NCBI GenBank assembly: GCA_004335835.1
Contig: RWJK01001622.1
Coordinates: 1-64,000 of the forward strand
From: Scenedesmus sp. ARA3
Taxonomy: Eukaryota > Chlorophyta > Chlorophyceae > Sphaeropleales > Scenedesmaceae
Direction: 5' to 3'
DNA length: 64,000 nucleotides
The notes under the pieces are model-generated. The model had not been told where the DNA came from. It did not search any database and saw nothing but the letters and a program-made list of their open reading frames with translations. The stretch's first letter is position 1. Each line of letters starts with the position of its first letter. Of this stretch, positions 1,239 through 60,802 are shown one piece after another. The translations under genes were made by a program, and so were the position numbers.

Positions 1239-4200
1239 ATGGCTGCGTCTTTCTCCCGTTGCGGTCAGCAGAAGGCGCTCGGCAGCAGCACTGCCCAGGA
1301 GCGCAGGGTCTTCGCCCCTGCTTGCTCCGCAGTGTCTGCACCAGCAGCAGCCTCAGTCAATGTGAACGCTGCACCCGTGTTCGCCAATGCAGCGCCAGTG
1401 GTGAGCACCCACAAGTGTCGCACTTAATGGCTGGCCGGCGTGAGCTTGTGCTGACGGATCTTCCCATGTGCCACAGGCCGCTCGTGGTGTCGCTGTGCCT
1501 CGCGCACCAGTTTCTTCCCGGCTGCAGAGGAATGTGACCTGCGCAGCTGGCAAGGACGCTACTGCTGGTAAGCCAGCAGCAGCTGTGGTCCATGTTGGGT
1601 GGTGCCTAGCCTGCTAAGTGCTGAACAGCTGAATTGCGCTGCTTCTCGCAGAGGGACGCGAGCAGGACCTGAGCAGATACCGTAACATCGGTATCATGGC
1701 CCACATTGACGCTGGCAAGGTGCGTGGCGCAGCAGCAGCTGGCTCACTCGCTGGCTGGCAGCAGCAGTGTGTGGCGGGAGCAGTGGGCTTGCAGTGCTGC
1801 ATGCTAAGCACCTTAAGCGCATGTGTACAGCAATGCTAGCAAGGATATTGTTATGCACAGTTTGTAGGCAGCGGGATTGGTGGCGCCCTGTGTGCCAGGC
1901 ACGCCTGGATGATGGTCAGGCAGACAGCCACAGGCACAGTAAGGGATTCAGCGCCCAGCAATAGGCCCAGCAATAAGCAGGATATGCTGTGCCAGGCAGC
2001 AAAGTTCGTCAAAGCAAGTTTACCGCAGACAACACTCATCTGCATGTTTCAGCATTGACTATAAAAGGAAACAGCAGCGGTGTGCATACAGAGCGCTGTG
2101 CTGAGCAGTCGCGCTGCACGTGTTTTCCTGCCAGAGCTGTTGTGTGCACAGCAGTGGTGTACCTGGCAGCTCGCCCCACTTGCAGGATTGTGATTACAAA
2201 CACCACTATAGTTGTTTGCTGCATACTGCAACAGCAGCGACCCCCGTACACATACACCACACACCACTTTGCTCGTTCCCCTTCCTGCATTCTTCCTACA
2301 CCCCCTCCTTATCCTCACCTCGCCACGCCCTTGCCACGCCGTTGCCACATCTCTCACATGTAAACATGTTACAGACCACCACCAGCGAGCGCATCCTGTA
2401 CTACACCGGCAAGTCCTACAAGATTGGTGAGGTGCACGAAGGCACTGCCACCATGGACTGGATGGTGCAGGAGCAGGAGCGCGGCATCACCATCACCTCT
2501 GCAGCCACCACCTGCCAGTGGAACGGGCACCGCATCAACGTCATCGACACCCCCGGGCACGTGGACTTCACCCTGGAGGTGCGCAGAGGTTGGATGTTAT
2601 GCGAAATGCGTGTCCTGCAAGTGCTGCTGCTGCTGCTGCTGTTGCTGCGTCGTGTTGCACTTATTGTCATTGACAGACCCGGGCACGTGGACTTCACCCC
2701 TGGGGTTGCGCTTATTGGTCAAGTCAAGAAAAATCAGTATGCTGGTATTGCCCTGCAAGCAGCTGCTGTGTAGAGTCGCGGCATGCTGTCCGAAGCCACG
2801 GCACGTGGGCTTTCCTTGGAGTTCTGTCACCGCAGCTTTGAGTCAGCTGATGTGGCACGTTGCGCGTGTTGTCCTGCAAGCTGCTGCTGCCGACTGGCTC
2901 CCCTGCATGCACGTCATCAACATCGCAGGGATCATGAACTTGACCCTTACATCTAACGTGAAACGCCCTGCTTTTGTTTCACAGGTGGAGCGTGCGCTGC
3001 GCGTGCTGGACGGCGCTGTGGCTGTGTTCGATGCCGTGTCTGGTGTGGAGCCGCAGTCCGAGACTGTGTGGCGCCAGGCTGACAAGTACAACGTGCCCCG
3101 CGTCTGCTTTGTGAACAAGATGGACCGCCTGGGCGCCAACTTCTTCCGCACCAGGTGCGCAGCTGTCTAAATGTGTGGGGTGGTTGAGCCTGGCAGATGT
3201 GGGTGTGCAGAGCTGCGATGCTGGGCAGCGAGCATTGACGTTGTTGTAAAGGGAGAGTTTACATCCTGGCCCACTGCTTAGATGTTGTGGATCGCGTGCT
3301 GCAGTGGACACATATGGCGTTAGCTTGCATAGCGTCAGCAGCTGTGTGTTTAAACATCAGCAGATGCCGAAACGGCCAGCAGCATGTGTAGCAGTCCCCG
3401 CAAGTTTCAGTCTGACATGGTCCTCACTGCTGCTGCTGCTGCTGCTGCCATCTCCATCATGTGCAGGGACATGGTGATCAGCAACCTGGGCGCCAAGCCG
3501 CTGGTGCTGCAGGTGCCCATCGGCTCAGAGGACGCCTTCAAGGTGCGGCGCTGCTGCTGCTGCTGCTGTGATGCTGTGATGCTCTACATAGCTGCATGGC
3601 GGCAGCACTGGCGGTATCAATACCGGGCGATAGGTGTCTGCTGCGCAGCTGGCAGCAGTGGCCACATCAAGAGGGGTCAGGAGCCGCAGCATCAGCAGCA
3701 GCTGCTACTCTCCTGCAAGGCAGGAGCCATCAGTGGCAGGAGCTATCAGTGGCAGCTCTGTGAAATATTTGGCAAGCCAGCTGTTGCTTCAATCTGCCAG
3801 TACTGCTGCAGCTGCTCCCTGGGCACGTCTCCTCCGCCTCACCCTCTGTCGCTGCTGCTTGTCATTCTGCCACTTGTGTTACTAACAGGGCATGGTTGAC
3901 CTGGTCAAGATGAAGGCGCTGGTGTGGTCTGGCGAGGAGCTGGGTGCCAAGTTTGATGAGGTGGACATCCCCGCTGACATGGTTGACCAGGCCAACGAGT
4001 ACAGGGAGAAGCTCATTGACTCCGTGGTGGAGCTGGATGATGCGGTGAGTGGCTGCTGCTGCTGCTGCAATGGCTGTGTTTTGTTTGTGATACGTTTGTC
4101 TGGGTTTGAGAGGGGTATTTAAAATAGAACGGAATGGATGATGCGGTGAGCTGTCTGTGCTGTTTCTCTGTTTCAGGCGTATGGCCATTGTGATAAGGAG

Positions 4201-5178
4201 GTGGACATTCCAGCTGCTCTCGTTGAACTGGCCAATGAGCCAAGGCGAAACGAGTTGATGGACGCCGTGGTGGAGCTTGATGATGCTGTGTGCCTGCTGC
4301 TGCTGCTGCTGCTGCTGCTGGTTTTGTGTGGTTGCAGTATGTCTCTCACAGCGAGGCTGGGCCAAACATGTTCTGCTGACTCTGCCCCTGCAGCCAATGC
4401 AGCGAATGTTTCCTGGGAGCAGTCATTAATATGCTGTGTGCAATGAAATCGAACAACAGGAGTACCCAGCAGTGTTGCACAACACTGTCTTGCTGCTTGC
4501 AGGTGCTGGAGGTTTGCTTGTAGGTCACCATGCGCGACAACGACGCCGTTCCTGCAGCATATATGAACTCACTAGTATGTCGTCTGTATATGTGCAGGTG
4601 CTGGTAGCCTACTTTGATGGCACCATGCCTGACGACGACACCATCAAGCAAACTGGAACTCAAAGGCAGTGTTATAACATCGTTTGAAATGCTGAGACCA
4701 TGCAGGTGCTGGAGGCCTACTTCCGGGGCACCATGCCCGACAACGACACAATCAAGCGCCTCATCCGCAACGGCACCATCGTACCAACATAGTCACAACC
4801 CAACTCATATGTTACTCTTTGTGTTACTTTGTTACATGTGCGTAGGTGCTGGAGGCTTACTTCGAGGGCACCATGCCCGACAACGACACCATCAAGCGCC
4901 TGATCCGCAAGGGCACCATCGACCGCGTGTTCGTGCCCATGGTGTGCGGCACTGCCTTCAAGAACAAGGGCGTGCAGCCGCTGCTGGATGCTGTGGTGGA
5001 CTACCTGCCCAGCCCCCTGGACATCCCTGACGTGGACGGCGTGGCGGTACGTTATAACAGTTTAACATCCATATATAACAATAATGAAGCCAGCGCTGAT
5101 GATTGAATTTCTGGCCAGTGCTAATGATTGAAATTCCCCTTTGCGGTGGCCTTCAAGAATGTGACCAAACACTTGCAT

Positions 5179-5218
<40 letters not shown>

Positions 5219-8200
5219 TTTTACAATCCTCAGGTCGACGATGCCGAGCAGGCGCTGACCCGCCCTGCCTCAGATGACGCACCCTTCTCTGCGCTGGCCT
5301 TCAAGATCGCCACCGATCCCTTTGTGGGCACGCTCACCTTCTGTCGCATCTACTCGGGCAAGCTGGAGGCGGGCACCTATGCGCTGAATGCCAACAAGGG
5401 CAAGAAGGAGCGCATCGGGCGCCTGATGATGATGCACGCCAACAACAGGTGCGTGTGAGGACATGGGTGTTTGGGTGCTGTTTGTACCGGTGAGAGTTGA
5501 GTCAAGTAGGGCAAGAAGGAGCGCATCGGGCGCCTGATGATGATGCACGCCGACAACAGGTGCGCGCAGGAACAAAACAGTTGGAATGCGCCAGCTGCAG
5601 CTTTGTTCCGTCTGGCCAGGAGGGCATGCCTGCTGCCCTGCTGGCTTTGTGGCAACAAGGCTCTCATCAGGACTGTGCATGTGTTTTTCCCCATGAGTGT
5701 GACCCCTTTTAGCAACCTCACTGTGTTACTTCCTCGCATTTGCAGGGAGGACATCAAGGTCGCGTATGCTGGTGACATTGTTGCCATTGGTGGCCTGAAG
5801 GAGGTCATCACCGGAGAGACGCTGTGTGATGAGAAGAACCCCATCATCCTGGAGCGCATGGACTTCCCCGACCCCGTGATCAAGATTGCCATCGAGCCCA
5901 AGAGCAAGGTGTGTTACAGTATATGTCACATGATGTGTTGCTTTGTGATGTCACAGTAACCTGCACAATTCATTCCTGTGCTCATTTTAGGGTTGCCCAG
6001 CATCTCCTTTTTCTGTAGCGGCGTCCTCCTGGGCCTTCTTTCAGCAGTTCTATAGCAACTTTGCACTGTGAACTTTCGCCTGCTTGGTGTGAACTTCACA
6101 GGGTGACCTGGAGAAGATGGGCATGGGCCTGAACAAGCTGGCCCAGGAGGACCCCTCATTCGGCTACAGCCGTGACGAGGAGACCGGCCAGACTGTGATC
6201 GAGGGCATGGGCGAGCTGCACCTGGAGATCATCGTGGACCGCCTGCGCCGCGAGTTCAAGGTGAGAAGATGGGCGTGAAGTTTCTGGTGTGGTGTGAAAT
6301 CGCCGGTGTGAATTTGGAAGGGGAGACCGGCCAGATTGTGATTGAGGGCATGGGCGAGCTGCACCTGGAGATCATCGTGGACTGCCTGCGCCGCGAGTTC
6401 AAGGTGAGAAGATTGATGTGATGTTTCTGAGGTGAACTCTGGCAGTGTTTGCTACGTGTGGTTGCTCACGGTCTTGGCTCACTGTCTTTGGCTCACGGTC
6501 TTCCTCTCGCCTTCTGGAGGCTCGCGGACTGCAACGCTGCTGTGGTGCCTGGTGCATCCTGCTGCAGGGTGTCAGCAGCATCCTGGGGTCACGTTCCGAT
6601 CTGCGTTGGCACATATTGTACAGTCGCCGCGCATTGCAGGGACTGACAGGAGTGCTGCTGCTGCTGCTGCCGTAGGTGGAGTGCGACGTGGGCGCCCCCC
6701 AGGTCAACTACCGTGAGTCCATCTCCCGCCCCAACGACATCCGCTACGTGCACAAGAAGCAGTCTGGCGGCTCCGGCCAGTTTGCTGACGTGGCCATCAA
6801 GTTCGAGCCAGGAGAGCCAGGCACCGGCTTCGTGTTCCGCTCTGAGATCAAGGGTGGCGCAGGTAAGGCACTGTTGTGGCGTTGTTGCAGCGTGGCCTGT
6901 AGAGCAGCAGCAAGGTCCTCATATAGGCAACGTGCAAGAGGTCTGCTGCTGCCACACCCGCCTGCAAGTGTTGTGTAGCCTGCAAGGCTGTGGGGCTGTT
7001 CAACATGGTACAAAACCATGCATTGGCTTGCGTGCACTCTTACTTTTGCGTCCTGCAGTGCCCAAGGAGTACACCCCCGGTGTGCTCAAGGGCGTGGAGG
7101 AGTCGATGGGCAGCATGCCACCTTTATGTCATCTATCCACTTCATAACTGTTACATATTCTTGCCGTTTTGTGTCACCCGCAGTGCCCAAGGAGTACATC
7201 CCTGGTGTGCTGAAGGGCCTGGAGGAGTCCATGGGCAGCGGCCAGCTGGCAGGCTTCCCAGTGGTGGACGTGACAGCCACACTCATCGATGGCAGCTACC
7301 ACGAGGTGGACTCCTCCGCACTGGCCTTCCAAATCGCTGCCCGTGGCGCCTTCAGGGAGGCGATGAGCAAGTGCGGCGCGCGCCTGCTGGAGCCCGTGAT
7401 GAAGGTGGGTTTCAGCAGGGGGTTTTCTGGGGTTTTGAAGTGTGGTTTAGGGTCCAGCAGGAAGGGCATCATGTCATGCGGCAGAGCGGCTGCTGGATGG
7501 GCAGTTGCATGTGATCGAACATGCAGCCAAGTTCCCTCAGTCAACTTCTTGCCTTGAGCCGTGCAATCTGCTGTAAGCCCTCGGCAGCCTCGCGTACCGC
7601 CACCTGCGCGCCACCAAGGGTGTGAACAAATTAAACCCTTTCAAATGCACTGCAGGTGGAGGTGATCACCCCTGAGGACCACATGGGTGACGTTATCGGC
7701 GACCTCAACAGCCGCCGCGGCATGGTCAACAAGTTTGAGGACAAGCCCGGAGGCATGAAGCTGGTGCAGGTGAGGATGCGGCACATTCACAACCATTAAA
7801 CCATAGCGTCGTGCCAACTACGAACCCTAATCTGGCGCTAATCATGAACCCTAGCAGCACGGAGGCATGAAGCTGGTGCAGGTGCGGATGCGGCACATCC
7901 ACATTCAAACCATTGTAATGTGCGGACCATGAACCCTAGTCTGGTGCTAATCATGAACCCTAGCAGCACGGAGGCATGAAGCTGGTGCAAGTGCGGATGC
8001 GGCACATTCACATTTAAACCATTGGATGTGCGAACCATGAACCCTAGTCTGGTGCTAATCATGAACCCTAGCAGCCCGGAGGCATGAAGCTGGTGCAGGT
8101 GCGGCACACTGATGGGAGCAGTGTGTCAACCCCTTCATGTTGATGTTCATCTTCATGATGTGTTCATGTCTGACAGCTGGTGCGGGTCAGCAGCTCTGCT

Positions 8201-8769
8201 AGCAGCATGTCAACCTTTCCTTGCGTTTGTTCATGCTCAAGTTCATACCTTGCATTTTGCTGTAAGCCTTGCTCTCAGCGCTGCGTGCTGCGGGCTTCTT
8301 AGGCAGGCCTACGTGCCCCTGGCGGAGATGTTGACCTACGTGTCGACGCTGCTGCACATCTTGCACTCCTCGAGTCGCACTGCCGCATGCCCTTTTACTC
8401 ACTGCTGCATGCTCCCACAACTTGCAATGTGCAGGCGTACGTGCCCCTGGCTGAGATGTTCAGCTACGTGTCCACGCTGCGCGGCATGACCAAGGGCCGC
8501 GCCAACTACAGCATGTGCCTGGAGCGCTACGAGGTGGTGCCACCCAACATCCAGGTGTGTGATTTGAACTGTGTTGTTATTGTGTTATAACATGTGTTAC
8601 AACCATGACATGTTGCAAGATGTGATGGTAAAATGGCGGTGAGACTTGCCGTGTTCATCAACATTGTTGCTGGGTCTTCCTGCAACCTGCTGACTTGAAC
8701 TGCTGCTGCTGCTGCTGCTTGCTCTCCTTGCAGACTGAGATCGTGGCCAAGCAGAAGGTGGCTGCATAA
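1239..8769 (+). CDS. cpEF-G: Plastid translation elongation factor G (nuclear gene, 16 exons)
   Basis: GTPase that drives ribosomal translocation in the chloroplast. Exons: 1239-1400, 1477-1567, 1652-1719, 2375-2578, 2985-3154, 3467-3542, 3889-4044, 4846-5046, 5234-5448, 5746-5908, 6102-6260, 6676-6862, 7184-7404, 7656-7769, 8435-8554, 8734-8769. Phases close exactly to 780 aa, the usual length for plant plastid EF-G. Residues 1 to about 84 are Ala/Ser/Arg-rich and fit a transit peptide. Visible GTPase motifs: AHIDAGKTTTSER (G1, about 101-113, interrupted by intron 3), RGITIT (about 143), DTPGHVDF (about 165) and NKMD (about 219). Domains II to V follow, including the conserved [12 protein letters not shown] segment, and the protein ends KQKVAA. 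The sequence matches the cyanobacterial/plastid type rather than mitochondrial EF-G. At least eight junctions carry tandem partial copies of the neighbouring exon inside the intron (separate entries). The ATG at 1239 was chosen because it opens the transit peptide and splices in phase to exon 2. Confidence 0.96.
2666..2824 (+). repeat. Intronic copies of the EF-G exon 4 end (G3 motif)
   Basis: 2666-2711 repeats the end of exon 4 that encodes DTPGHVDF plus its donor region, with an inserted C that breaks the frame and no GT donor at the original place. A more decayed copy lies near 2800-2824. Both are in intron 4. Confidence 0.85.
4201..4287 (+). repeat. Intronic copy of the EF-G exon 7 end
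   Basis: The segment reads [13 protein letters not shown] and then ends VVELDDA followed by a GT, matching the exon 7 end ([13 protein letters not shown] to VVELDDA) at 3965-4044. It is open throughout. A very short copy of the last codons with a GTGAGC donor also lies at about 4135-4148. Confidence 0.88.
4503..4790 (+). repeat. Three intronic copies of the EF-G exon 8 start
   Basis: Copies begin after AG at 4503, 4598 and 4706; the functional exon begins at 4846 (spacings 95, 108, 140). The 4598 copy reads [17 protein letters not shown] and the 4706 copy reads [18 protein letters not shown], against [18 protein letters not shown] in the real exon. Similarity to the functional exon rises toward it: the 4503 copy is decayed and out of frame. 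Confidence 0.92.
5510..5559 (+). repeat. Intronic copy of the EF-G exon 9 end with donor
   Basis: Encodes [17 protein letters not shown] and is followed by GTGCGC, mirroring the exon 9 end (donor 5449); donor-to-donor spacing is 111 bp. A splice from this copy would stay in the same phase. Confidence 0.92.
6322..6403 (+). repeat. Intronic copy of the EF-G exon 11 end with donor
   Basis: Encodes [18 protein letters not shown] and ends in REFK before GTGAGA, copying the exon 11 end (donor 6261) with a spacing of 143 bp. Open throughout, with two substitutions I can see in this stretch (T to I and R to C). Confidence 0.93.
7059..7119 (+). repeat. Intronic copy of the EF-G exon 13 start with acceptor
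   Basis: After CAG at 7056-7058 it reads [19 protein letters not shown] once phase is taken into account, against [19 protein letters not shown] in the real exon starting at 7184 (spacing 125 bp). Confidence 0.93.
7850..8100 (+). repeat. Three intronic copies of the EF-G exon 14 end
   Basis: The exon end encoding GGMKLVQ plus about 85 bp of intron is repeated three more times. Donors are at 7770 (real), 7882, 7991 and 8099, a regular 108-112 bp period. The third copy has AA in place of AG before the GT. Confidence 0.93.
8307..8352 (+). repeat. Intronic copy of the EF-G exon 15 start
   Basis: After CAG it reads [15 protein letters not shown], against [15 protein letters not shown] in the functional exon at 8435 (spacing 128 bp). 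Confidence 0.92.
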
Positions 8770-10919: not shown

Positions 10920-10955
<36 letters not shown>

Positions 10956-11061
10956 GTCACGCCACTGCAGGGATGACCTTGGAGACAAGATCTTCCAGCG
11001 CGATGGTGACCTGTCCCGCCTGTTCCTCAAAGTGGTCACCCTGAGCACCAACACTCATTTT

Positions 11062-11104
<43 letters not shown>

Positions 11105-14100: not shown

Positions 14101-15101
14101 TGCTCATTTGCAATGATTGAGCTTTGCTTTTGGTAGCTGCTCTGCTGTCAATGTGTCGCAAACAACATGTCAAGGCATATGGTGCTGTATTATTGCTGCA
14201 TCTTAACGTGCCACTGACCAATTTGCATCCACTCCTTGACCATGTTCTGCCGTGAAACTTCGCTGCAGCTGCAGCTCGCAGGACCGGCTAGACACCTGGC
14301 TTACCGATGAGGAGGTGGCCCATGAGGCTCGTCATGCACTGATGCGTGGTACTTCGGATTTGTCATCATTGCTTTCATTCCCCTTCCCTGCTTGTGCTGC
14401 CCCTAGGTCTTTGGTGAACCGGCTGGACACCTGGCCCACTGATGAAGAGATGGGCCGCATGTACCTGGCAGGGCAGAATCCTCTCACCATCGAGGTATGT
14501 TGTAACACGGTTCAAAACAGCACTGTGCCAGGGTTTGGGATTGAGGTTAAGTTAGAAACCCCCTGGTGAGGAGATAGGCCGCATGCACCTGGCGGGACAA
14601 AAAGCCCTCACCATTGAGGTATGCAGTGACAGGGTTTAAGGAGCAGTGTGCTAGGGTTTGGGATTGAGGTGCTAGGTTTGAACCCGCTGTTGAAGAGATG
14701 GGCCGCATGTACCTGGCAGGGCAGAACCCCCTCACTATCGAGGTATGTTGTAACAGGGTTCAAGACATAGTGTGCTAGGGCTTGGGGTTTGGGTTCATTT
14801 TTGAAACCCACTGATGAGAGATGGGCCGCATGTACCTGGCAGGACAGAACCCTCTCACCATTGATGTATGTTGGAACAGGGTTTGAGATTATGGTGTTGT
14901 GCTAGGCTTTAGAGATTCATCTCATCATCTGTATCCCACTGGCGAGGACTGGGCTGCATTTCATCGCTGACGCAGCAGATGTTGCATGTTTCTGGTAGCA
15001 CTACAGATGCTGTCCTTTGCGTTTCAAGTGCGGGGCCAGGCGGAGAGCTGCTGAGCCAAAGCCACATGAACCTGGAACAACCATTGACACTCAGCTGCTG
15101 G

Positions 15102-15132
<31 letters not shown>

Positions 15133-15442: not shown

Positions 15443-15475
<33 letters not shown>

Positions 15476-16462: not shown

Positions 16463-16503
<41 letters not shown>

Positions 16504-16566
16504 AGGTGGCCAAGCTCATCTTCCAGTCTGTGGACAGCGGCTGGCACCAGCTGGTCAGCCACTGAC

Positions 16567-16613
<47 letters not shown>

Positions 16614-27163: not shown

Positions 27164-27221
<58 letters not shown>

Positions 27222-28457: not shown

Positions 28458-28492
<35 letters not shown>

Positions 28493-43877: not shown

Positions 43878-43927
43878 NNNNNNNNNNNNNNNNNNNNNNN
43901 NNNNNNNNNNNNNNNNNNNNNNNNNNN

Positions 43928-44815: not shown

Positions 44816-44854
<39 letters not shown>

Positions 44855-47185: not shown

Positions 47186-47220
<35 letters not shown>

Positions 47221-47221
47221 G

Positions 47222-47253
<32 letters not shown>

Positions 47254-47959
47254 AATGCCTACCTGCCTGCCTGCCTGCCTGAATGCCTGCCTGCCTGCCT
47301 GCCTGCCTGCAGTGTGGCGACGGCTTGCTCACAGAGAGCGATGGGGCAGTCAGCGCAGATGCCTGCTATGTGCCCCCAGGCTTTGGCATCGTGCGTGCAG
47401 AAGGCAGTGGCACTATCGCTGCAGTGATGTGTGTGCAGGGCATGTTTGGCAGGTCAGCGCCCAACTACGACACACGATCTACAAGGTGAGCTTATGCCAT
47501 AGATACAGAGGTTACAATTGTCAGCTTATGCCACACAGGCGTGGTTGATGGGCCACATTGCTAGGGCGGTTGCAGGTACAACTAGCAGCAGCAGCAGCAG
47601 TAGCAGCAGCAATGGTAGCGTCTGTGACAACAGCTGCCGCAGTGGCACTATGCCATCATGCATGTGCAGAGCATATTTGGCAGGTCAGCGCCAAATCAAG
47701 ACAAACGATCCACGAGGTGAGCTCATGCCACGCAGACGTGGTTGATGGGCCACATTGCTAGGGCGGTTGCAGGAACAACTAGCAGCAGCAGGGGCAGCAT
47801 TGGTTGCGTCTGTGACAGCAGCTGCGGCAGTGGCACTATGCCAGCATGCATGTGCAGGGCATGTTTGGCAGGTCAGTGCCAAACACATGATTCACCAGGT
47901 GAGCTTGTGCCAAGCAGACGTGGTTGATAGGCCACATTGCTAGCGCAGCTGCAAGTACT

Positions 47960-48007
<48 letters not shown>

Positions 48008-50916: not shown

Positions 50917-53900
50917 TCAGTTGCCAACGGGTGAGCCCGCAGCACCCCGCCCACCACTGCCAACCCCACCGCCCACCCGGCCTGCTTTGCTGTTGTGCTG
51001 CCTGCTGCCCTGCTCCACATGCAGCTGCCCACCAACACCCACCAGGCCTGCCCCATAGCCGCTGCTGCTGTCATCCAAGCTGCCATAGCTGCTGCGCTGC
51101 ACATACAAACTTCTTGCCCCTGCAGCTGAGCCAGCCACTGCGGCAGCATCCTCCATGCTGCGCCTGCCCTGCAGCCCTGCAGCAGCTGCACCGGCATCAT
51201 CTGCTGCCGCGAGAGAGCGGCTCACCGTTGTGTGCTGCATGCCATGGTGCCGGGCATCTGCTGCTGCAGCATCACTGGGCCTCGCTATAGTAGCAGCTGC
51301 GCCAGCTGCTGAAGCATTGCTGCGCAGCTCTGGCTCGCCGTCCTGCTGCTGCTGCTTGTGTGCTTCAAGCACCATCATCATCACAAAGGGATTACTCCTG
51401 CAGCACACACATACATACAGGCGCATCAGCCACGCCTTGATTCGCTGCAGACTCAAGCTGTCTTAGGCAGGCATGCACTGCAGTGCATTGTCATATTGCA
51501 GGTGCTTTGGAACAACATCACACTCTGAACTTGCATACATGTACATATGATCAACTTGAACTGGCAGTGGCTGCTGCACAGCCCACACCCGCCAGCCCAC
51601 CTGTAGCACACCACTGCCCAGGCCAGGCCGCAGCTCACGATGCGCAGCAGGTTCAGCACCTGCCACATGTTGACCTGCACAACAGCAGCAGCATAGCAGA
51701 TTATGTGACAGCAGCGCTTGGCAACGGGTAGCAGACTCATGAAGCAACAGGCGGATCTGTTAGCTCGCCACATGAATGCGGGCGCCCAGCGACACCACCC
51801 GGTGGCTGGGTACCCAGCGTGTATCACTGAATGCTGCAGCAAGCTGTGCGAAACAACACAACCTTCCAGCAGCCACAACACAGCGCAAGCCACATCCCAA
51901 CCTCAGCACAAATGTGCCGCCTCCTGCCCGTCTCCACTCATGCATAGGCGCATTACCCACCTTCTTTACAAAGGCCTGCTGCAGCGGCAGCGCCCAGTAG
52001 CCCACGTCTCGCCGCGCCTCAACGGGCTGCACCAAACATTGCTGAAGCACTGGGTGCTGCTGCAACCTTTGAGACCCAACATTTTGTGCATCATATGTGA
52101 TCACACGATTATGGGATCACAACCCACCTTCTTCACAAAGGCCTGCTGCAGCGGCAGCGCCCAGTAGCCCACGTCGCGCCGCGCCTCAAAGGTGAGCTGG
52201 TCGTCAATGGGCGTGGCCAGCAGGTTGGCAGCGTACGCCAGCAGGTACAGCGCCAGCACACTGCCATCCGCTACGCGCAGCCTGCAGCCACACAAAATAA
52301 CTGCTTTGTTATGATGCTTACATGCAAATGTTATCGATATGTCAATAACGGTTGTGCAGTTATAGGCATATGGTTGTTCCACCCTGTGAAGTGAAGCGGC
52401 CACATAGACCAGCAGGTACAACGCCAACACGCTGCCATCCGCCACGCGCAGCCTGCAGCCAAAAACATTGGGCATCTAGTCAAACGATTGCAGTTGTGCC
52501 ATGTTGTGGTCAGCAGGTTGGCTGCATAAGCCAGCAGGTACAGCGCCAGCACGCTGCCGTCCGCCACGCGCAGCCTGCAGCAGCAAACATTGGCATCTAG
52601 TCAAATGAATGCTGTTGTGCCATGTCTTGGCCAGCAGGTTGGCCGCATAAGCCAGCAGGTACAGCGCCAGCACGCTGCCATCCGCCACGCGCAGCCTGCA
52701 GCCACAGACGGCAACAATGGTCATGTAGTTATATGACGTTAAACCGTCATGCGCGCCGGCAGGTACAGCGCCAGCAAGCTGCCATCCACCACGCGCAGCC
52801 TGCATTCACAACAAAAGATGGGCGACTAGCTACATGCACGTACATAAGCAACCCTGTCATTGTTTGATAGCATGACACACAGGCATCATGTGGCAGTGTC
52901 TGCGCTGCTATGTCTCCTCCAGCCAAAAGCGCCAAAGAACCACTCCGCTCCACGCCGTGCCAGGCGCACCTGAGGAGGCTGGGCCTGAAGCCTCTCAGCT
53001 GGTTGTATGCAAGGCGGGATGCCGCCGACACCAGGGATACATAGTTGGCGTCAACCTGCTGTGTGTGCACGCCGTGCGGTACGAAAGACAACATCTGCCA
53101 GCTAACAACACCAAACAACCGCGAATCCAGGCGCACCTGAGGAAGCTAGGCCTGAAGCCTCCCAGCTGGTCGTAGGCAAGGCGGGACGACGCCGACACCA
53201 GCGACAGGCTGATCAGCGTGAAGAAAGCCCGGTTCACCATCTGGCAGCGAAGCAGGCCGGATCCAGCAGAAAATTTACAGCATCAGCCAATATCAAGGGC
53301 AAATGCATGACTAGATGCACATGCTGCAATGTCTGAGACATGACATGCTTGAGTAGCTATGAGCCAGCAAGTTGCTGGGCAGACAAGCACAGCTGCAAGT
53401 TCAATTGCAAGGTGAGGGGCAGTGCTTTTGCCAGCAGGCAGCATTGCAAGCATGAGGAGCTGCCCAGGCTTGCTGCCTCACCTGTGCGTGTGCCGAGTAG
53501 TATGCCAGGAAGCCGTCCCTGCCTGCTGTGATGTACTGCAGGTATGTCATGAACAGGCTCAGCAGCGCCAGCCCACCAGCAAGACCCTGCAGCACAAGCG
53601 AGCGTGTTGTGAGTACCTCTGTGCAGCCCGCATGCCTCCAGGGCCTGGTGTCACTGCACTTGCTCCCTCCTACGCTACCCACACCATGCGCTGCTGCGCT
53701 TGTGAGCCAGAAATAGCCTGAAATAACAAACGCACTCCCTCCCCAGTCCGGCGACATGGTCACAACACCAGCTGCAGCGCACCTGCATGAACACCCCCAG
53801 TGCTGCCATGGCGCTGCCCATGCTCTCATTTACCACTGGCGAAACCCCTTTCCCTGCTAGGCAAAATTTCTGTCCCAGCTGCAGCACACCTGCGCAAACA

Positions 53901-56091
53901 TGCCCAGTGCCGTCATGGCGCTGCGAATGCTCTCAGTGCCACATGGCCACCCTTCCCTGCCAGGCCATTTGCATATCTCAGCTGCTGCAGCACTTTTGAT
54001 CATACCTGCGCAAACATGCCCAGTGCTGCCATGGCGCTGCCCATGCTCTCAGTGCAATATGAGCCCCCTTCCCGCCAGGCCATCTGCCTATCCCAGCTGC
54101 TGCAGCACTTCTGATCATACCTGCGCAAACATGCCCAGTGCTGCCATGGCACTGCCCATGCTCTCATCACTGGCAAAGCCGTATCCCTGCTAGCCGATAT
54201 TCCCATCCCAGCTGCTGCAGCACTTTTGATCATACCTGCGCAAACATGCCCAGTGCCGCCATGGCGCTGCCCATGCTCTCAGTGCTACATGGCCCCCCTT
54301 CCCCGCCAGGCCATTTGCCTATCCCAGGTGCTTCTACACATCTGATCATACCTGCGTGAACATGCCCAGTGCTGCCATGACGCTGCTGCCCATGCTCTCA
54401 GTGCTACATGGCCCCCCTTATCCCGTCAGGCCATTCGCCCATCTCAGCTGCTGTAGCACATACAAACACACCTGCGCAAACATGCCCAGTGCTGCCATCG
54501 CGCTGCCCATGCTCTCAGTGAACTCGCCCAGGCTCGCCAGCAGGCTGGGCTCCTGCGCGGCGCCGCTCCAGCCGGCAGGCGCGGCGGCGGGCTTGCGCCT
54601 GCACATGGCAACACAATCGACACTGCACACTCAGAGTGTTGTACATAAATAGCTCGTTCGGACAACAGCCTTTGCACTCCGAACATGCAGTTGGTAGCGG
54701 TCACAACTATGCAATATGTAAGCTGCGCAATTGACATCATCATTGCTCGCACCTGAGCCAGGCCATGCAGCCGCTGCGTGGTGCCGCCAGCATGAAGAAC
54801 TCGCCCGTGTTCCAGTCCTCCAGGTAGTGGTGCGCCAGCCGCGTCGCGTCAGCGCCCTCGCCCACGCGGCACAGCTGGCCGGTGTCCTGCAAGCAGCCAG
54901 CACCAGTGCGGCAAGCAGCATGAGGTTGGGTGGTGGAGTTGGTGGGTCACAAGCAAGCTGCAGCCTTCTGATGTTGTGTGTGCTGCAGTTGTGGCTGATG
55001 AGAACCATGCTCCTGAGTCGCTTGCAGTTGTTAGGTGCACAGTGCATGCGGCTGATGTGCTGTTGGATGCATGCAAGGGCTTCAGCAGCAGTCAATGCCA
55101 ACTGTAAGCGTTCTATGCTACACTGCTGACATATGATCACAATGTATATCCTGGAATGCCACTCCATGCAAACTAGGGACGGAGTACTGAACGTTCAGCC
55201 CACCTGGTTGTAATAGTACTGCTGCTGTGACGCTGCGGCCTCCTGCTCGCCCACCACATGCTCTTGGTCATGGCCATTGTAGTCTATTACGCCATCATGC
55301 TGCGGCAGCGGATGCTGCAGGTACTCTGCTGCAGGCTGCACCTCAAACCGCAGTGTTTTGGTGGCCAGCAAGCTGCTGTGTTTCAAGGGGCTGCTGGGGA
55401 TGCTGCTTTGTGAAACTACCTTTGCCACTGCAGGACTGCTTGGTGCATGCGCCACGGTTGGTGGGTCTGCTGCTGCTGCTGCTGCCGCTGCTGCATCTTG
55501 CTGTTTGTGTGCTGCTGCACTTTCCACAGCTATGGGTGCATCTACTGGCGCTGTTGCTGCTTCCTGCAAGCTGGCAGGTTGCCGGGCGTCCCAGACTGGC
55601 TGTTGGGTGCTCGATGGGTCACTGCTGACAGCTAAAGGGTTGCTGAACACTGAGAACTGCTGCAGAGGCGCAGCCGGCTCCTTAGTGGTTTGCTGTCTGG
55701 ATAACTGTCCCTGCTGCTGCTGCTGCTGCTGACCTGCAGTTTGCTGCAGCTGCACTTGTGGCTGCTGCAGTGTTTGTTGCTGCTGCTGTTGCCGCTGCAT
55801 CAATGGTTGCTGAGACTGCACAGCTGTAGGCTGTTGCACGCGCGTGCGCAGTGGTGCCAGTTGGCCGGGCCGTGGAAAAGCTGCCGTATCGTTTTGTGAA
55901 GGATCACTGCTTCTGCGTCTTGATTGTTGTCTGGCCATGGCGATGGCATTTGCCAAACCCTGCTGCTGCTGTTGTTGCTGCTGTTGAGTGCTGCCTGTGC
56001 CAGCTGGCTCAGGTGCAGCTGCGGGTGCTGCTGCGGTGCCAGCATCAAAATCAGCGCCTCCTCCCCCCTGACTGGTTCTACGTCTGAACAT
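50917..56091 (-). CDS. TMEM237: TMEM237-like four-pass ciliary transition-zone protein
   Basis: Exons in transcript order: 56091-55204, 54886-54753, 54598-54472, 53586-53482, 53240-53137, 52281-52128, 51674-51601, 51397-50917; 688 aa in frame. Residues 1-296 are disordered and Gln/Ala-rich. Four hydrophobic spans follow at about 375-400, 419-440, 455-478 and 508-529. Their order, loops and motifs (LGMFAQGLAGGLALLSLF; LVSASSRLAYDQL; a third helix after DGSVLALYLLAYAANLL; VNMWQVLNLLRIVSCGLAW) match TMEM237, a membrane protein of the ciliary transition zone that in humans is linked to Joubert syndrome. The C-terminal 160 residues are Ala/Gly-rich and lineage-specific. It shares a 392-bp promoter region with the hydrolase gene. 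Exons 3, 5 and 6 have tandem junction copies. Identification is by remembered pattern, so moderate certainty. Confidence 0.75.
51957..52035 (-). repeat. Intronic copy of TMEM237-like exon 6 end
   Basis: On the minus strand it codes RRDVGYWALPLQQAFVKK with its GTGGGT donor, copying the real end at 52128 (spacing 170 bp). Confidence 0.93.
52330..52800 (-). repeat. Four intronic copies of TMEM237-like exon 6 start
   Basis: Minus-strand acceptor-side copies of RLRVADGSVLALYLLAYAAN start at 52452, 52574, 52695 and 52799; the functional start is 52281. Spacings are 171, 122, 121 and 104. Two copies extend to ANLL, like the functional exon. Confidence 0.95.
52970..53048 (-). repeat. Intronic copy of TMEM237-like exon 5 end
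   Basis: Codes LVSAASRLAYNQLRGFRPSL and a GTGCGC donor, against LVSASSRLAYDQLGGFRPSF in the real exon (donor spacing 167 bp). Confidence 0.94.
53783..54420 (-). repeat. Six intronic copies of TMEM237-like exon 3 end
   Basis: Minus-strand copies of ESMGSAMAALGMFAQ plus donor and intron. Boundaries at 54471 (real), 54351, 54235, 54120, 54005, 53889 and 53782 give periods of 120, 116, 115, 115, 116 and 107 bp. Most copies keep an open frame and a GT. Confidence 0.96.
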
Positions 56092-56483: not shown

Positions 56484-59332
56484 ATGTTTTCTCACGCGTT
56501 TGCAAACAGAGGCGTGCCTCGCACTTTGTTCCACACAGCCAGTATCCGTTGCAGCAGCAGAGCAGCACCCTATCCACACAGTTCGCTCATTACAACATCA
56601 GCAGCGCCTCGTGCGATCATGAAAGACTCTGGGATAGCGGATGCGGCAGCAGAGCTGGTTACCTCCGCAGAGGCACCACAGCTGCCCTGGTGAGGACTTG
56701 TGATGTCAGGCCACTTGCTGCCAGCAGCAGGCCTGAGGGCTTCTGCTCAGAATATTGCTGCACTGACTGTTGCATCCTTTTAGAAGTCAAAACAACTGTT
56801 ACCTGATATGCTCAGCTTAACATTTTGTAAGCACCAGCAGCGTCACTGCACCAGGCTGCACCTTTGCTCTGATGCAGCAACACATGCCCAGGCATGCCGC
56901 GGCTGCATGCATGCTGATGCAACAGGTGGATGAAAGTAACACGCTGGCGGCCAACCAGCAAAGAGGAGGCTGTACATGCAGAAAGAGGCATCCTGAACCT
57001 CCTCAGGTAGCTTGCTGAGGTGCCAGCTGGTTGCACATGATCCATGCAGGTCCATTGAACTGTGTGAATCAGCATGTGCATGCATGGCGCTGTGCCATTG
57101 GCTGAACCTGCTATCTTTTATTGTTTGAGAGCATGCAGTGCGTCAGCTGTAGGTTTCATGAACAGGCTGCCACACAGCAGGTTTGATCAGCGTCAGTGTC
57201 AGCAGAGCAGCAACGCACTCTGAGGCCAGCTGCCTCCGCATGCAATGCGTGTATGTTCCAATGCCTTTGACTATTTCATGTTGTTCATGTCCACGCCGCT
57301 GTTATACGTCTCATTATTGTGACGCAGGAGCAAGTGGCAGGTGGAGGATGTGCCAGTGGGCCCCGGGCCCGAGCAGTACATGCACACGCTCACCAACAGC
57401 AGCAGCAGCGGCAACGAGCCGGTCAAAGGCCCTGCAATGGTGCTCATGCCTGGCTACGGAGCTGGATCAGGCTTCTTCTTCAGGTGCAGCAGCTTGCTAC
57501 TAGCACAGCAGCTGGAGCTCAGTACAGCAGCTGCCCTGACAAGCAAAGCATGGGTTTGCAGTGGGTTTGCAGTGCAGTGGAAGTACTGTGCCCTGCAGTG
57601 CAGAGGAGTGCAGTGCAGCTGCTGAGTCAGCACCATGCGGTGCACTGAGCGCACTCACCTTGACAGCCAGCAGCCGGTCATGCAGCTCAGCATCCCCGCC
57701 GTTGCAATGCAAAGTTCTGTTCAGGCGCATGCTTGCGCGTGCACAACTGACATGCTTCATGGAGAATCATCTCCACATGTTGCGCCACCAGTTATGTTGC
57801 TGTTGTGTTTGCACATATGTTTGTCTTGTCCTGCAGGAACCTTGACGGGCTGGCGCGCGTGTTCAACCTCTTTGCAGTTGACTGGCTAGGCACAGGCCTC
57901 TCAGGTGTGCAGACAGCAGCAGGTGCAGCAGCATCCTCTTCAGCGTGGTTGACAGCCTTTGCACGTATACGCTATGAGAGCAGCTGCTGTGCATCTGGTG
58001 CTCTGCATGTATCACCTTGCTGTGACCAATGCTAAGATCATATCGTGACAGCAAGTTGTTCCTTACTGTGCAGGCCGGCCGCCATTCACTGCGCAAGACA
58101 GGCCCGCCACTGAGGACTTCTTCCTGGAGAGCCTCAACACGTGGCGGAAGGAGCAGGGCTTGGACAGCTTCATCCTAGTGGGGCACAGCCTAGGTGAGCA
58201 ATTCCTGGTCAGACAATTTGTATGACTGTTTTTGTATGTTTGTTTCAAAGCGCTTCTTGAAGCAGGGCCAGCTGCCACTGGGCTCCGTCTTGTCAATGTT
58301 CTGACAGCTCAGCTTACCGTGTTATGCAGTGCAATGGCAATCAACATGCATCACCAATAGTGATCTCGCCTGCCTACAATCACGGCCGCACCTTTTTTTA
58401 AATTGCCCGACAGATGCATTGTGCGCCCGCTTGCTGCTGTTGTGATTGCTGTTGTGCTGTGCCGTGTGCAGGCGGCTACCTTGCAGCCAGCTATGCGCTG
58501 CGGCACCCGGAGCAGGTGCAGCACCTGGTGCTGGTGGGACCCGCAGGCATTGTGAGTGTACAAGTTGGTTTTTTTAATTAAGCAGTTGCCAGGCGCTGCA
58601 GTGTAGGGCTGCTCGCTAGCATGCGCCAATCACTCAGCATGTTGTACAGTCCTGCGGTCGGTCTGCCTGGCATCTATTCACATGCCACTGTCTAGTCAAT
58701 TGTCATGAACTGCAACCAGGGTTCTGCCTTGCTTGCTCACCTGTGTGCTTGCTGATAGCTCCACTGTGTAAGCTGACACCACCCACAGCACACCAAGCTG
58801 GAGTCAGGGCTGGGAGAGCTGCTTCGCGACTGACAGCTGGTCGCGGCGCAGCCATCTTTTCCAGCTGTCAAAGCGCTGAATCAAACATATGCCTGCCTGT
58901 ATGGCCCTATCTTCCGTGATATGCTGCTGCAGCCTACAAAACCAGAAGGCTGGGAGAGCCGCTTTGCTACTGACAGCTGGTCGCTTCGCAGCCAGCTGTT
59001 CAAGCTGGCAGCCCACGCCTGGGGCAGCGGCATCACCCCTTTCAGCCTGATCAGGGCGCTGGGGCCGTGGGGGCCAGGGCTGGTGGGGAAGTACGTGACC
59101 GGGCGCTTCAGCATGCACGGTGAGAGTAGTTGTCTCAGTAACTGCTTGGCTGTGATTTTTGCATGCCCAGGCGTGCCGCTTGAGCCTGCCCAGTTGTCTC
59201 GCTTCAGGAATCACTATTACGGAATATTGTAGCAGTATTGATAAACCTCCTTTGTGCTGCTGCATGCAGGCATGCCGCTTGAGCCTGCCAAGTTATTGAA
59301 TCTTGGGATTACCCTTACCACTTCCCTCCTCA

Positions 59333-59367
<35 letters not shown>

Positions 59368-60802
59368 GTGCAGGCATGCCGCTTGAGCCTGCTGAGTCAT
59401 CCACCTTCAGGGACTACTTCTACCATATCGCAGCAGCACGTGGCAGCGGGGAGTATGCACTGCGGCACATATTGGTGAGGCAGTGCTCTAAGCATTAGGC
59501 TGGCAGTGTGTTGCACGGCTGCACTTGCGTGCCAGCACACAGCCGGCACTGCTGCAGAACCAGCCGGTCCCGACTGCATCAGTGTGGGCAGAGTCCTTGC
59601 CATGCAGACTGTCCTGCTATTCTCTATCACTGATGTCTTCGCGCCTGCTGCGGTTGCTGCTGCTGCTCTGCTGGTCTGCTGCTGCAGGCCCCAGGCGCGT
59701 GGGCACATGCGCCGCTGCAGGAGCGGCTTGCGGAGCTCAAGGTGCCTGTCACTTTCATTTATGGCGAGCATGACTGGATGCAGCCAGCAGCAGGCCAGGC
59801 GCTGGCAGACAAGCTGGACCAGATACGGCCGCGCAAGGTGGGTGCAGGCTGACCAGCAGGCATCAGCAGAGAGTTCAAGTGATTAGGTTTTATTGTTAGT
59901 GTGTGGTGTTATGCGATGTGGCCGCAGCAGGCCAGGCGCTGGCAGACAAAGCGGATCAGCTACGCCCGGGCAAGGTGGGCTGTTGGCCAGTGAGCACGGC
60001 CGCTGTTGGGTTGGGCTTTGTCCCATTTGTGGCACCTGCTGCTGCATTTGCTGTTCTCATGGTCTGCAGGTTGCCTCACACCACCAAGTTGGGATTGTGC
60101 CAGACAGTGACCACTTTGTGCTCAAAGAGCAGCCGCAGGCCTTCCTTCTCAATGCCATGCTGCTGCGCAGCATCTGCGTGGGATCTGCTCCTGCATCTGC
60201 TTATTCCAGGGCATCTCACTCATGACACCCGCTGCTGCTGTACCTATGGCACTTGCATCCTAACCGCTTGCAGGTTGCCTCAGACCACCGAGTGGAAATT
60301 GTTCCGGACAGCGGCCACGTTGTGTTCCTAGAACAGCCCAGACACTCAATGCTATCCTGTTGTGGCACCTGCTGCTGCATCTGCTGCTTTCATGGTCTGC
60401 AGGTTGCCTTAAACCACCGAGTGGAAGTTGTTCCAGACAGCGGCCACTTGGTGTTCCTGTAGCAGCCGCAAGCTTTTGATTCAGTCCTTTTACGGCATCT
60501 GCTGCTGCGTCTGCTGCTTTCATGGTCTGCAGGTTGCCTCAGACCATCGAGTGGAAATCGTGCCAGACAGCGGCCACTTTGTGTTTCTAGAGCAGCCGCA
60601 GGCCTTCAATGCAGCGCTGCTACGCAGCATGGAGTCGTATTTGCCACACGGGCTAGCAGCAGAGGCAGCAGCACAGGAGGAGCAGGCGCTGCGGGTGAAG
60701 CAGGAGCAGCTGGTGCAGCAGATGCGGCAGCGGCAGCAGGAACGGCAGGCAGGGGAGCAGCAGAAAGAGCAGCAGCAGCAGCAGTTGGCTTCTGACACTT
60801 GA
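56484..60802 (+). CDS. CGI-58: CGI-58/ABHD5-family alpha/beta hydrolase
   Basis: Exons: 56484-56689, 57328-57483, 57837-57904, 58074-58193, 58472-58551, 58933-59119, 59374-59474, 59688-59837, 60533-60802; 445 aa in frame, close to the plant homologue's length. The family acts in neutral-lipid and phospholipid metabolism (lipase co-activator in animals; lipase and lysophosphatidate acyltransferase activities have been reported for the Arabidopsis protein). Motifs: PGYGAGSGFFF oxyanion region, DWLGTGLSG, nucleophile elbow GHSLGG with Ser182, GPWGPGLV, YGEHDWM with Asp335, and SGHFVF with His371, a full triad. The HX4D acyltransferase motif is HFVFLE here, with Glu376 in the Asp position. The first 45 residues may be an organelle-targeting peptide. 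The last 40 are a Gln/Glu-rich helix not typical of the family. Exons 6-9 have tandem junction copies. Confidence 0.9.
58806..58856 (+). repeat. Intronic copy of CGI-58-like exon 6 start region
   Basis: Repeats the coding stretch for WESRFATDSWSLRSQ with a frameshift and stop; spacing to the functional sequence is about 140 bp. Confidence 0.85.
59160..59320 (+). repeat. Two intronic copies of CGI-58-like exon 7 start
   Basis: Copies of MPLEPAE begin after CAG at 59171 (VPLEPAQ) and 59270 (MPLEPAK); the functional exon begins at 59374 (spacings 99 and 104). Confidence 0.93.
59926..59974 (+). repeat. Intronic copy of CGI-58-like exon 8 end
   Basis: Codes QALADKADQLRPGK, against QALADKLDQIRPRK, with a GTGGGC donor at 59975 (real donor 59838, spacing 137 bp). 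Confidence 0.94.
60030..60532 (+). repeat. Three intronic copies of CGI-58-like exon 9 start (catalytic His)
   Basis: Copies begin at 60070, 60274 and 60403; the functional exon begins at 60533 (spacings 204, 129, 130). The 60274 copy reads VASDHRVEIVPDSGHVVFLE, intact and in the same phase. The 60403 copy has a TAG after HLVFL. Upstream intron containing CATGGTCTGCAG is repeated too. Confidence 0.95.

Follow-up and report, generated by a model that had tools for sequence, protein, structure and literature searches.

The origin of intron length and of new splice sites is an old open question, and the 64,000-nucleotide stretch of Scenedesmus sp. ARA3 DNA analysed here (the window) raises it in a concrete form: why are the edges of exons, together with the adjoining intron, repeated inside the introns beside them? 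An earlier note on this DNA had described such copies at about 35 junctions in six genes on both strands, 1 to 6 extra times each, and had ascribed them to a genome-wide process at exon borders for which it knew of no mechanism.

Placement of the copies in the window and beyond

We compared the window with itself and sorted the matching pairs as lying within 3 kb of each other or farther apart. Of the pairs obtained, 76 were direct and close together, 7 were direct at a greater distance and none was inverted; they group into 35 local repeat clusters (Table 1). A predicted exon crosses the cluster border, with the splice edge inside, in 33 of the 35, so the edge copies are real, and the junctions, genes and strands counted before agree with these clusters, as does the range of copy number (6 at the TMEM237-like junction 54472). 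The exon maps of EF-G and lipoxygenase come from homology and those of the other genes from a self-trained model; exons wholly within a cluster were counted as copies in the cluster classes, per-gene counts, edge scan and intron counts. All 8 EF-G clusters span a predicted exon edge, and so do 11 of the 12 in lipoxygenase. The twelfth (20343-20774), which had been called intron-only, actually repeats the border at the stop codon, and the other window cluster outside the 33 (35063-35706) has whole small predicted exons inside. The gene model places an additional exon edge, at 15999, within the lipoxygenase array at 15902..16143, and in the EF-G cluster at 5397..5564 the matched stretch is identical at 56 of 57 positions, next to a spacer without visible similarity. 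Gene finders were misled by the copies, the first gene model scoring many of them as exons and being full of micro-exons, while a codon-bias exon scan was swamped by poly-Gln tracts; an Rfam search gave no match.

Table 1 Repeat clusters at coding-segment borders in the window
Gene	Exon or border	Copies	Position	Strand
EF-G	2375-2578	donor edge, 1 copy downstream	2540..2711	+
EF-G	3889-4044	donor edge, copy downstream, spacing 240	3958..4309	+
EF-G	4846-5046	acceptor edge, 3 copies upstream	4498..4921	+
EF-G	5234-5448	donor edge, 1 copy	5397..5564	+
EF-G	6102-6260	donor edge, 1 copy	6179..6429	+
EF-G	7184-7404	acceptor edge, 1 copy upstream	7044..7239	+
EF-G	7656-7769	donor array, ~109 bp unit, 3 copies	7744..8104	+
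EF-G	8435-8554	acceptor edge, 1 copy upstream	8303..8480	+
Lipoxygenase	11251-11491	acceptor array, 2 copies, CTG tracts within unit	10921..11325	+
Lipoxygenase	11976-12136	donor copy	12054..12337	+
Lipoxygenase	12517-12736	donor copy	12623..12910	+
Lipoxygenase	13227-13437	acceptor copy	13103..13291	+
Lipoxygenase	starting 13734	acceptor copy	13608..13793	+
Lipoxygenase	14407-14494	donor array, 124 bp unit, 3 copies	14435..14959	+
Lipoxygenase	16068-16170	acceptor array, 104 bp unit	15902..16143	+
Lipoxygenase	16635-16763	acceptor copy; same-break copy in paralogue	16464..16693	+
Lipoxygenase	17315-17396	acceptor copies	17029..17345	+
Lipoxygenase	17881-17995	acceptor copy	17741..17924	+
Lipoxygenase	18921-19082	acceptor array, 5 copies, two intron types alternating	18236..18992	+
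Lipoxygenase	stop codon 20275-20277	stop-codon border repeated downstream, ~136 bp unit	20343..20774	+
First Cys-rich		array enclosing small predicted exons, ~242 bp unit	35063..35706	+
First Cys-rich		donor array, 105 bp unit	37008..37265	+
First Cys-rich		acceptor array, 118 bp spacing	37504..37843	+
Second Cys-rich (Ephrin_rec_like)		donor copy	45315..45544	+
Second Cys-rich	donor edge 46707	2 copies	46681..46955	+
Second Cys-rich		donor array	47403..47990	+
Second Cys-rich		acceptor copy	48106..48373	+
TMEM237-like	52128-52281	donor copy	51955..52192	-
TMEM237-like	52128-52281	acceptor array, 4 copies	52213..52816	-
TMEM237-like	53137-53240	donor copy	52960..53204	-
TMEM237-like	54472-54598	donor array, 6 copies	53768..54520	-
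CGI-58-like (alpha/beta-hydrolase)		acceptor copy	58808..59010	+
CGI-58-like		acceptor copy	59255..59400	+
CGI-58-like		donor copy	59777..59979	+
CGI-58-like	60533-60748	acceptor array	60023..60630	+

Exon-edge copies are also present in about 190 kb drawn from other parts of the genome, which brings the sample to 254 kb with the window and bears out the proposal of a genome-wide process tied to exon borders. By the predicted exons, 69 of the 86 clusters in this sample span an exon edge, 3 are called intron-only and 2 have whole small predicted exons inside, whereas random placement with matched unit lengths gives an expected spanning share of 40%, which simulated neutral decay leaves at 40-41%. 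Measured against an ordinary minisatellite, whose unit is alike along its whole length, the match covers at least 0.9 of the unit in 31 of the 86 clusters, and many others match in the exon half alone; the clusters that reach this coverage include 24 spanning and 2 intron-only ones. Full-unit young pairs number only four, two of them spanning, one spanning-like by reading and one intronic. Near pairs over the 254 kb are direct in 168 cases and inverted in one, with a spacing mode of 100-140 bp, a second hump near 240 and none below 60. The units of the two exonic clusters (183 and 246) are both multiples of three; the 64 unambiguous edge-spanning units split 20:22:22 by their remainder on division by three.

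An edge-centred scan, restricted like the intron counts to GT-AG introns of 60 to 2500 bp, found copies at 57 of 554 predicted coding-segment edges (about 10%). No match was obtained for the far exon edge sought in the same intron (0/317), for exon interiors sought in the adjacent intron (0/176) or, at equal score, for exon edges against an unrelated intron (0/1662), giving 0/2155 for the controls combined. In these tests copies lie only on the intron side beside their own edge, as had been noted, and they are far commoner at edges than at other genic positions, so the comparison that the earlier note had named as able to refute it does not do so. Its rejection of classic whole-exon duplication also stands, and mutually exclusive exons can be set aside with it: far edges and interiors are absent, and 44 of the 45 gaps in the copies break the frame. 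The same holds for introners: when stretches of three genes were searched against the assembly, with very common words skipped, the matches comprised nothing beyond the stretches themselves, a single paralogue of lipoxygenase and two short sequences resembling EF-G.

The description of the copies as pervasive holds in that many genes carry them, but their distribution is patchy. The share of affected junctions is uneven across genes (chi-square 94, df 39, p = 2e-6), with none of 50 affected in the gene model at 21.3-34.6 kb, and across 33 gene models it rises with GC3, a loose proxy of expression (rho 0.44, p = 0.01). Copies occur in 51 of 307 introns of gene models, and the introns that bear them are longer (median 484 versus 270 bp).

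Sequence features of the two halves of the copies

Five clusters with two crossing exons were excluded from the copy statistics, and copies were dropped from the splice-site counts, half comparisons, substitution counts and correlations if their match ended over 2 bases away from the edge. Copies less than 78% alike were further excluded from the branch substitution counts, and those below 80% from the synonymous analysis of young copies. Judged by their sequence, the copies are not coding. Their gaps are not multiples of three in 44 of 45 cases, and changes assigned to a single copy are synonymous in 66 cases and non-synonymous in 80, as compared to 18 and 2 for changes on the exon branch. 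Copies at least 80% alike differ from their exon at about 9% of positions (465 of 5019 bases).

The two halves of the copies have not diverged alike. In arrays of at least two copies, exon halves resemble each other more closely than intron halves do in 55 of 58 exon-copy pairs and in 55 of 61 copy-copy pairs. The intron halves of many copies are still clearly related, and there are others in which they no longer align beside exon halves that are 90-98% alike. For 17 arrays, the correlation between exon and intron halves is r = 0.06-0.37, as against 0.51 between exon halves and 0.66 between intron halves, with a bootstrap interval of -0.07 to 0.58, which includes zero, in one comparison and of 0.02 to 0.78 in the other. 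Decay of a full tandem unit was rejected as the only reason for unrelated spacers: the spacers are mostly at background when set against random window stretches, and the young pairs are too alike in the exon half. In the 16 copies that are at least 90% alike and have unrelated introns, 75% of the differences are synonymous (45:15), as compared to 47% expected for neutral copies and 82% if both sides were coding, and such young copies keep a good donor consensus in different letters.

Of 44 acceptor copies, 43 retain the AG, against an expectation of 35.6 (p = 0.001), and 43 have the C before it, whereas donor copies keep the GT in 41 of 50 (40.2 expected), which is only as well as the exon half is kept.

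Copies in the lipoxygenase paralogues

The lipoxygenase gene has a paralogue, with dS of 0.44 over five exons and 0.56 over eight loosely mapped exons, and copies at exons 9, 11 and 14 are common to both genes. So are arrays at the border between the coding sequence and the 3' flank, which qualifies the earlier restriction to splice junctions: exon edges are strongly enriched, but the stop-codon border carries arrays too, and the process is therefore wider than splice sites.

At exon 11 both the break and the flank are common to the two paralogues, so the copies there are likely older than the paralogue split. The copy in the window nevertheless differs from its own exon at only 2 of 55 positions (23% expected under neutrality, p = 8e-5), and the copy in the paralogue at 7 of 55 (p = 0.04); the two exons are themselves separated by no more than 7 differences in the 55 positions, and at three sites that distinguish the exons one copy departs from its exon. 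At exon 14 the copies differ from their own exon at 6 and 4 of 55 positions in the window and at 5 of 55 in the paralogue. The two paralogues do not align convincingly over the flank of the exon-14 break, where breaks may thus have recurred. The copies at these two junctions are probably older than the split. Sites at which the copy follows the exon of its own gene number two at exon 11 and four at exon 14, and there are none at either exon in which the exons agree across genes and the copies agree among themselves instead. Gene-specific changes shared despite a probably older duplication, as in concerted evolution, are found at both exons, the shared break being convincing for exon 11 and less so for exon 14.

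Possible origin of the copies and related systems

The reading we favour, with a probability of roughly 45%, is that tandem duplications at coding edges pile up in introns and that recombination with the working exon likely preserves the similarity of their coding-derived halves. Tandem duplications, mostly of 80-150 bp and overlapping the edges of coding segments, would accumulate in introns after starting, perhaps, by break repair or replication slippage. With a duplication across a coding edge, the outermost donor, acceptor or stop codon would remain functional and the change would be tolerated; within an exon, a duplication would survive only in frame. The copies are predicted to leave the protein unchanged and to lengthen the intron. 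Held constant by selection, the exon would serve as a permanent template for the renewal of nearby copies, through gene conversion and unequal exchange, and the intron-derived halves would meanwhile drift. Copies renewed in this way would therefore stay visible and could seed further exchanges, and intron-only copies would fade without an exon anchor. If persistence alone were at work, spanning copies would have to outlive intron-only ones about 45-fold or more (arithmetic from the observed counts and the simulation). An excess of this size suggests that the birth of duplications also favours exons. Conversion does not account for the mostly synonymous differences of the young copies whose introns are unrelated, and the retention of the acceptor AG beyond expectation also weighs against this reading.

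A more far-reaching version, which we put forward tentatively and consider doubtful, would have introns diverge too quickly for pairing, so that recombination is effectively limited to coding blocks. Each coding edge would then be a homology cliff, at which failed exchanges create and endlessly renew the edge copies. If true, an exon-anchored engine would build introns with proteins untouched, and spare splice sites and stop-codon borders would be present in hundreds or thousands of genes.

The duplication machinery might itself target coding edges, e.g. if active genes break at exon-intron chromatin or R-loop borders, with copies that then merely decay. This would fit the edge excess, which exceeds what decay or detection gives, the narrow mode of unit size and the climb of the affected share with GC3. 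We regard it as unlikely, since plain decay does not explain exon halves that remain 90-98% alike beside non-aligning intron halves, or probably old copies that match their own exon, and the stop-codon arrays weigh against a targeting linked to splicing.

Strongly diverged homologues or past hybrids, with shared exons and different introns, could also have recombined and so have supplied a second edge with the intron of the other homologue. The mostly synonymous differences of the young copies with unrelated introns agree with such an origin, for which the synonymous excess still leaves room, and their donor consensus resembles that of two working alleles. This is nonetheless quite improbable: the assembly holds no second haplotype for the EF-G and TMEM237-like stretches searched, intron halves are clearly related in many copies, and the gaps break the frame. 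The lipoxygenase array with alternating intron types, together with the paralogue, leads us to prefer renewal by the exon, and the same two observations displaced an early idea, in which inserted exon edges gave rise to the copies with unrelated introns.

No better placed is selection on the copies as working splice elements, whether alternative or poison exons or regulatory decoy sites, for which we see about one chance in ten. The retained acceptor AG and its preceding C, the synonymous excess of young copies and the presence of exon 9, 11 and 14 copies in both paralogues are what it would predict, but it is at odds with the frame-breaking gaps, with donor sites kept no better than the exon half and with stop-codon arrays that have no splice site at all; in both paralogues, moreover, the exon-11 copies read on to a TGA that is in frame.

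Very improbable is a neutral origin, in which tandem duplications fall at random and are seen mainly at exon edges through easier detection of the conserved copy. Such duplications would be tolerated at exon edges, and the exon half would decay more slowly with one partner under selection, but a simulation of that model gives 40-41% spanning among detected pairs versus 69 of 72 observed, and, given the gene models, cluster placement, edge scan, intron counts and simulation refute it as the sole cause. An assembly artefact is scarcely credible: an assembly of 1567 contigs with many CTG tracts might contain collapsed or duplicated sequence, but the copies are about 9% off their exon, gapped and spread over many contigs, and a break is shared between the paralogues.

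In concerted evolution, through gene conversion and unequal exchange, copies within a locus become more alike than their history predicts. The likeness within loci here also exceeds history, but it is homogenised mainly in the exon-anchored half, while the other half drifts. Plant work by Puchta and colleagues reportedly traced small tandem duplications to the end joining of staggered breaks. Such duplications, described in PMC8355091, are direct, local and tandem like those seen here and are a plausible source of the first copies; the available portion of that paper introduces them among insertions below 100 bp and describes neither a tie to coding edges nor long-term homogenisation. Introners, which change introns genome-wide in diverse eukaryotes (PMC9860276, available part), are single elements copied into many genes, whereas the stretches tested here match paralogous genes only. 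In the Rogers/Hellsten model, as outlined in the accessible text of a review (PMC3443670) and of a study of Drosophila cases (PMC2891723), an exonic AGGT segment is duplicated to give a new intron. There too, tandemly duplicated exon sequence yields spare splice sites, but that unit is exonic and turns into intron, while the unit described here extends across a border already present, with its copy within an intron that already exists.

Most copies bear a splice site or a stop border, and the process could thus give alternative splicing and intron movement new material to draw on; likely exchange of an exon with its non-coding copies also leaves a visible trace here. Among the matches listed from the open-access literature, which mostly leaves subscription papers aside, none reports exon-edge arrays on a genome-wide scale. 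The view that no known mechanism gives this pattern has to be modified, as a single event of the kind is already in print: one tandem duplication across an intron-exon boundary, at an acceptor junction, of a potato gene (PMC4974935, in its available part). The unit there likewise consists of an intron tail and an exon start, in one event in one gene, and the new intron was shown to be spliced. Here, in contrast, copies are predicted from sequence, occur at donor as well as acceptor sides and reach six in number. In the literature consulted, junction-crossing duplication is described from one plant gene, and copies at about 10% of tested edges represent a wider scale. An 83-bp intronic duplication in the potato gene is mentioned in the same source.

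Repeat clusters and exon edges

The assembly that holds the window comprises 87.27 Mb in 1567 contigs; beyond the window we sampled about 170 kb chosen by place and seven flanks of about 3 kb (254 kb with the window). Exons were mapped by homology to E. coli EF-G, by reading of the sequence, by the match to solved lipoxygenases (8qdq, E 2.6e-104, for the lipoxygenase chain) and with a self-trained gene model, in which the EF-G exon chain translates intact. This model was seeded with the EF-G and lipoxygenase exons and recovers 32 of their 33 starts and 30 of their 33 ends, which is not an independent test since the same exons trained it. Pfam names for further window genes are Ephrin_rec_like, TMEM237 and alpha/beta hydrolase. 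Judged by gene content and style, the genome is likely that of a green alga. A run of N at about 43880-43926 of the window, flanked by TGC-repeat tracts, is an assembly gap at a microsatellite.

Copies of an exon edge and its adjoining intron are a real pattern, and not a local one. When the window is compared with itself, 76 direct repeat pairs lie within 3 kb of each other and 7 more are wider apart; no pair is inverted. A predicted exon edge is spanned by 33 of the 35 window clusters, in line with the roughly 35 affected junctions claimed in the earlier note; the figure is 8/8 for EF-G and 11/12 for lipoxygenase, whose twelfth cluster (20343-20774), first called intron-only, actually repeats the stop-codon border. 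The process was also claimed to act across the genome, and the pattern indeed recurs in the stretches sampled outside the window: over 254 kb, 69 of 86 clusters span an exon edge of the gene models. The other 17 comprise 3 called intron-only, 10 without a called gene, 2 exonic and 2 with whole small predicted exons. Eight of the 10 fall in one stretch that an earlier model run had given a gene, and at least 4 of these have splice-like borders by eye, although the tally of 69 excludes them. Near pairs are direct in 168 cases vs 1 inverted, with spacings that peak at 100-140 bp, show a second hump near 240 and never fall below 60.

Edge placement exceeds chance. When units of equal length are placed at random on the gene models, 52,587 span an edge and 78,056 are intron-only (40% spanning). 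In a simulation that adds neutral decay and keeps real exons conserved, the spanning share of detected pairs is 40-41%, compared with 69/72 observed. Clusters whose match covers 0.9 or more of the unit profit least from slow exon decay, and of these 24 span an edge vs 2 that are intron-only. An edge-centred scan found a copy in the edge's own intron for 31/275 donor and 26/279 acceptor edges, and no match in 176 exon interiors, 317 far edges or 1662 unrelated introns; at 57/554 edges against none in these controls, copies are commoner at junctions than at random genic positions, as had been proposed. In a fourth control, 33/442 intron-internal pieces matched the rest of their own intron, mostly because introns with edge copies supply matching pieces: 250/813 pieces matched in 51 introns having an edge copy vs 50/2718 in 256 introns without, the 50 being confined to 9 introns, one of them an array with whole small exons. 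Median intron length is 484 with edge copies vs 270 without.

Exon and intron halves of the copies

The copies are non-coding. Among 106 copies at 64 unambiguous junctions, 44 of 45 gaps relative to the exon have lengths not divisible by three. The exon branch carries 18 synonymous changes and 2 others, and single-copy changes are synonymous in 66 and not in 80, where about 45 and 100 are expected without constraint; this synonymous excess can stem partly from exon changes missed by older copies.

In arrays with at least two copies, exon identity exceeds intron identity in 55/58 exon-copy and 55/61 copy-copy pairs. Identity falls at the junction, from 0.91-0.92 over the first ten exon bases to 0.44-0.59 (ungapped) at intron positions 6-12, where unrelated introns give 0.25-0.33. 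The matched stretches of young pairs are up to 56/57 or 73/75 identical, with spacers lacking visible similarity, and one acceptor array has three exon edges without a difference in 41 bases, next to introns 60-76% alike (background about 55%). Neutral decay alone, starting from one original unit, would not produce such a contrast. The pattern is not universal: 29 of 89 classed copies still have an intron half that is 70% or more alike. In two sampled stretches, at L017 5971-6154 and L011 5679-6076, exon and copy differ by TCC/AGC serine codon switches, each being two changes in one codon with serine kept.

A diverged lipoxygenase paralogue on contig 692 (L031) has its own edge copies and a stop-codon array. 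Over five exons it is 85.6% identical to the window gene (dS 0.44; 0.56 over eight loosely mapped exons). Both genes have copies at the exon 9 donor (scores 45 and 42; threshold 44) and the exon 11 and 14 acceptors. Copies at the exon 10, 12 and 13 acceptors are window-only (the paralogue's exon 10 start is uncertain), as is a weak copy at the exon 11 donor (score 37; threshold 44), and that at the exon 14 donor is paralogue-only.

The exon 11 copies of both genes break at the same point, read into an in-frame TGA past the break and match in their upstream flank, so this copy should predate the paralogue split. A neutral copy of that age is expected to differ from its exon by about 23%, but the differences are 2/55 bases in the window (p 8e-5) and 7/55 in the paralogue (p 0.04); between the genes, the exons differ at 7 bases and the copies at 8. 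Of 55 exon 14 bases, 6 and 4 differ between copy and exon in the window and 5 in the paralogue, compared with 12 between the two exons. Each copy follows its own gene's exon at 2 exon 11 and 4 exon 14 sites, and no site in these exons shows the opposite, an agreement between copies that sets them apart from matching exons. At 3 sites of exon 11, one copy departs from its exon. Across 17 arrays, the correlation is 0.51 between exon halves, 0.66 between intron halves and 0.06-0.37 across the junction, zero being excluded by one of two bootstrap intervals for the lower cross-junction value. The exon likely renews its copies by recombination.

Birth of copies and differences between genes

Several findings do not accord with renewal. 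Sixteen copies at least 90% alike with unrelated introns carry 45 synonymous vs 15 other differences, where the synonymous share expected is 47% for neutral copies and 82% for two working exons. This excess would fit either the derivation of some copies from a diverged homologue or the use of some copies. AG is kept in 43/44 acceptor copies (35.6 expected, p 0.001) and GT in 41/50 donor copies (40.2 expected).

Were survival the only cause of edge placement, edge copies would need a life about 45-fold longer or more, by arithmetic from the random-placement and decay results; the birth of duplications is therefore probably biased towards edges as well, with four young full-unit pairs for comparison.

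Genes differ strongly in affected junctions (chi-square 94, df 39, p 2e-6), and four gene models of 28 to 50 junctions each are without any edge copy. GC3 correlates positively with the affected share (rho 0.44, p 0.01), as intron microsatellites perhaps do (rho 0.31, p 0.08). A 26-exon model at window 21319-34628, with Ser/Gln-rich and coiled-coil-like exons, has edge copies at 0/50 junctions and heavily affected neighbours. A CCTG array of 38 copies lies amid trinucleotide CTG tracts at window 47158-47310, and CTG tracts occur inside several acceptor-side units. Contig 829 has two short EF-G-like matches (158777-160850; 79 and 88% identical), and no repeat clusters in its sampled 30 kb.

Precedents, stop-codon borders and exonic repeats

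A single junction-crossing duplication is already known: in a potato gene, a tandem duplication spanning an intron-exon boundary is reported to have created a new intron (PMC4974935). Units are exonic in the AGGT model (PMC3443670) and likewise in its cases (PMC2891723), and end joining is described as a source of small tandem duplications (PMC8355091). No genome-wide case of exon-edge arrays was among the open-access matches listed, and what seems new is that such duplications are so numerous at coding edges and that their exon half is likely renewed.

Edge copies reach beyond splice sites. The paralogue repeats its last coding codons, stop codon and flank three times at 131 bp, and the window lipoxygenase has its stop-codon border in three further copies within an array. 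The affected places would have in common that duplication spares the message, provided that the outermost site is used. The 64 unambiguous edge-spanning units spread evenly by remainder after three (20:22:22); both exonic cluster units are divisible by three.

Exonic repeat clusters in two sampled stretches
Stretch	Position	Feature	Unit
C903 (joined stretch)	15274-15966	tandem repeat inside predicted exon	183 or 246 bp (the other in L020)
L020	2138-2449	tandem repeat inside predicted exon	183 or 246 bp (the other in C903)
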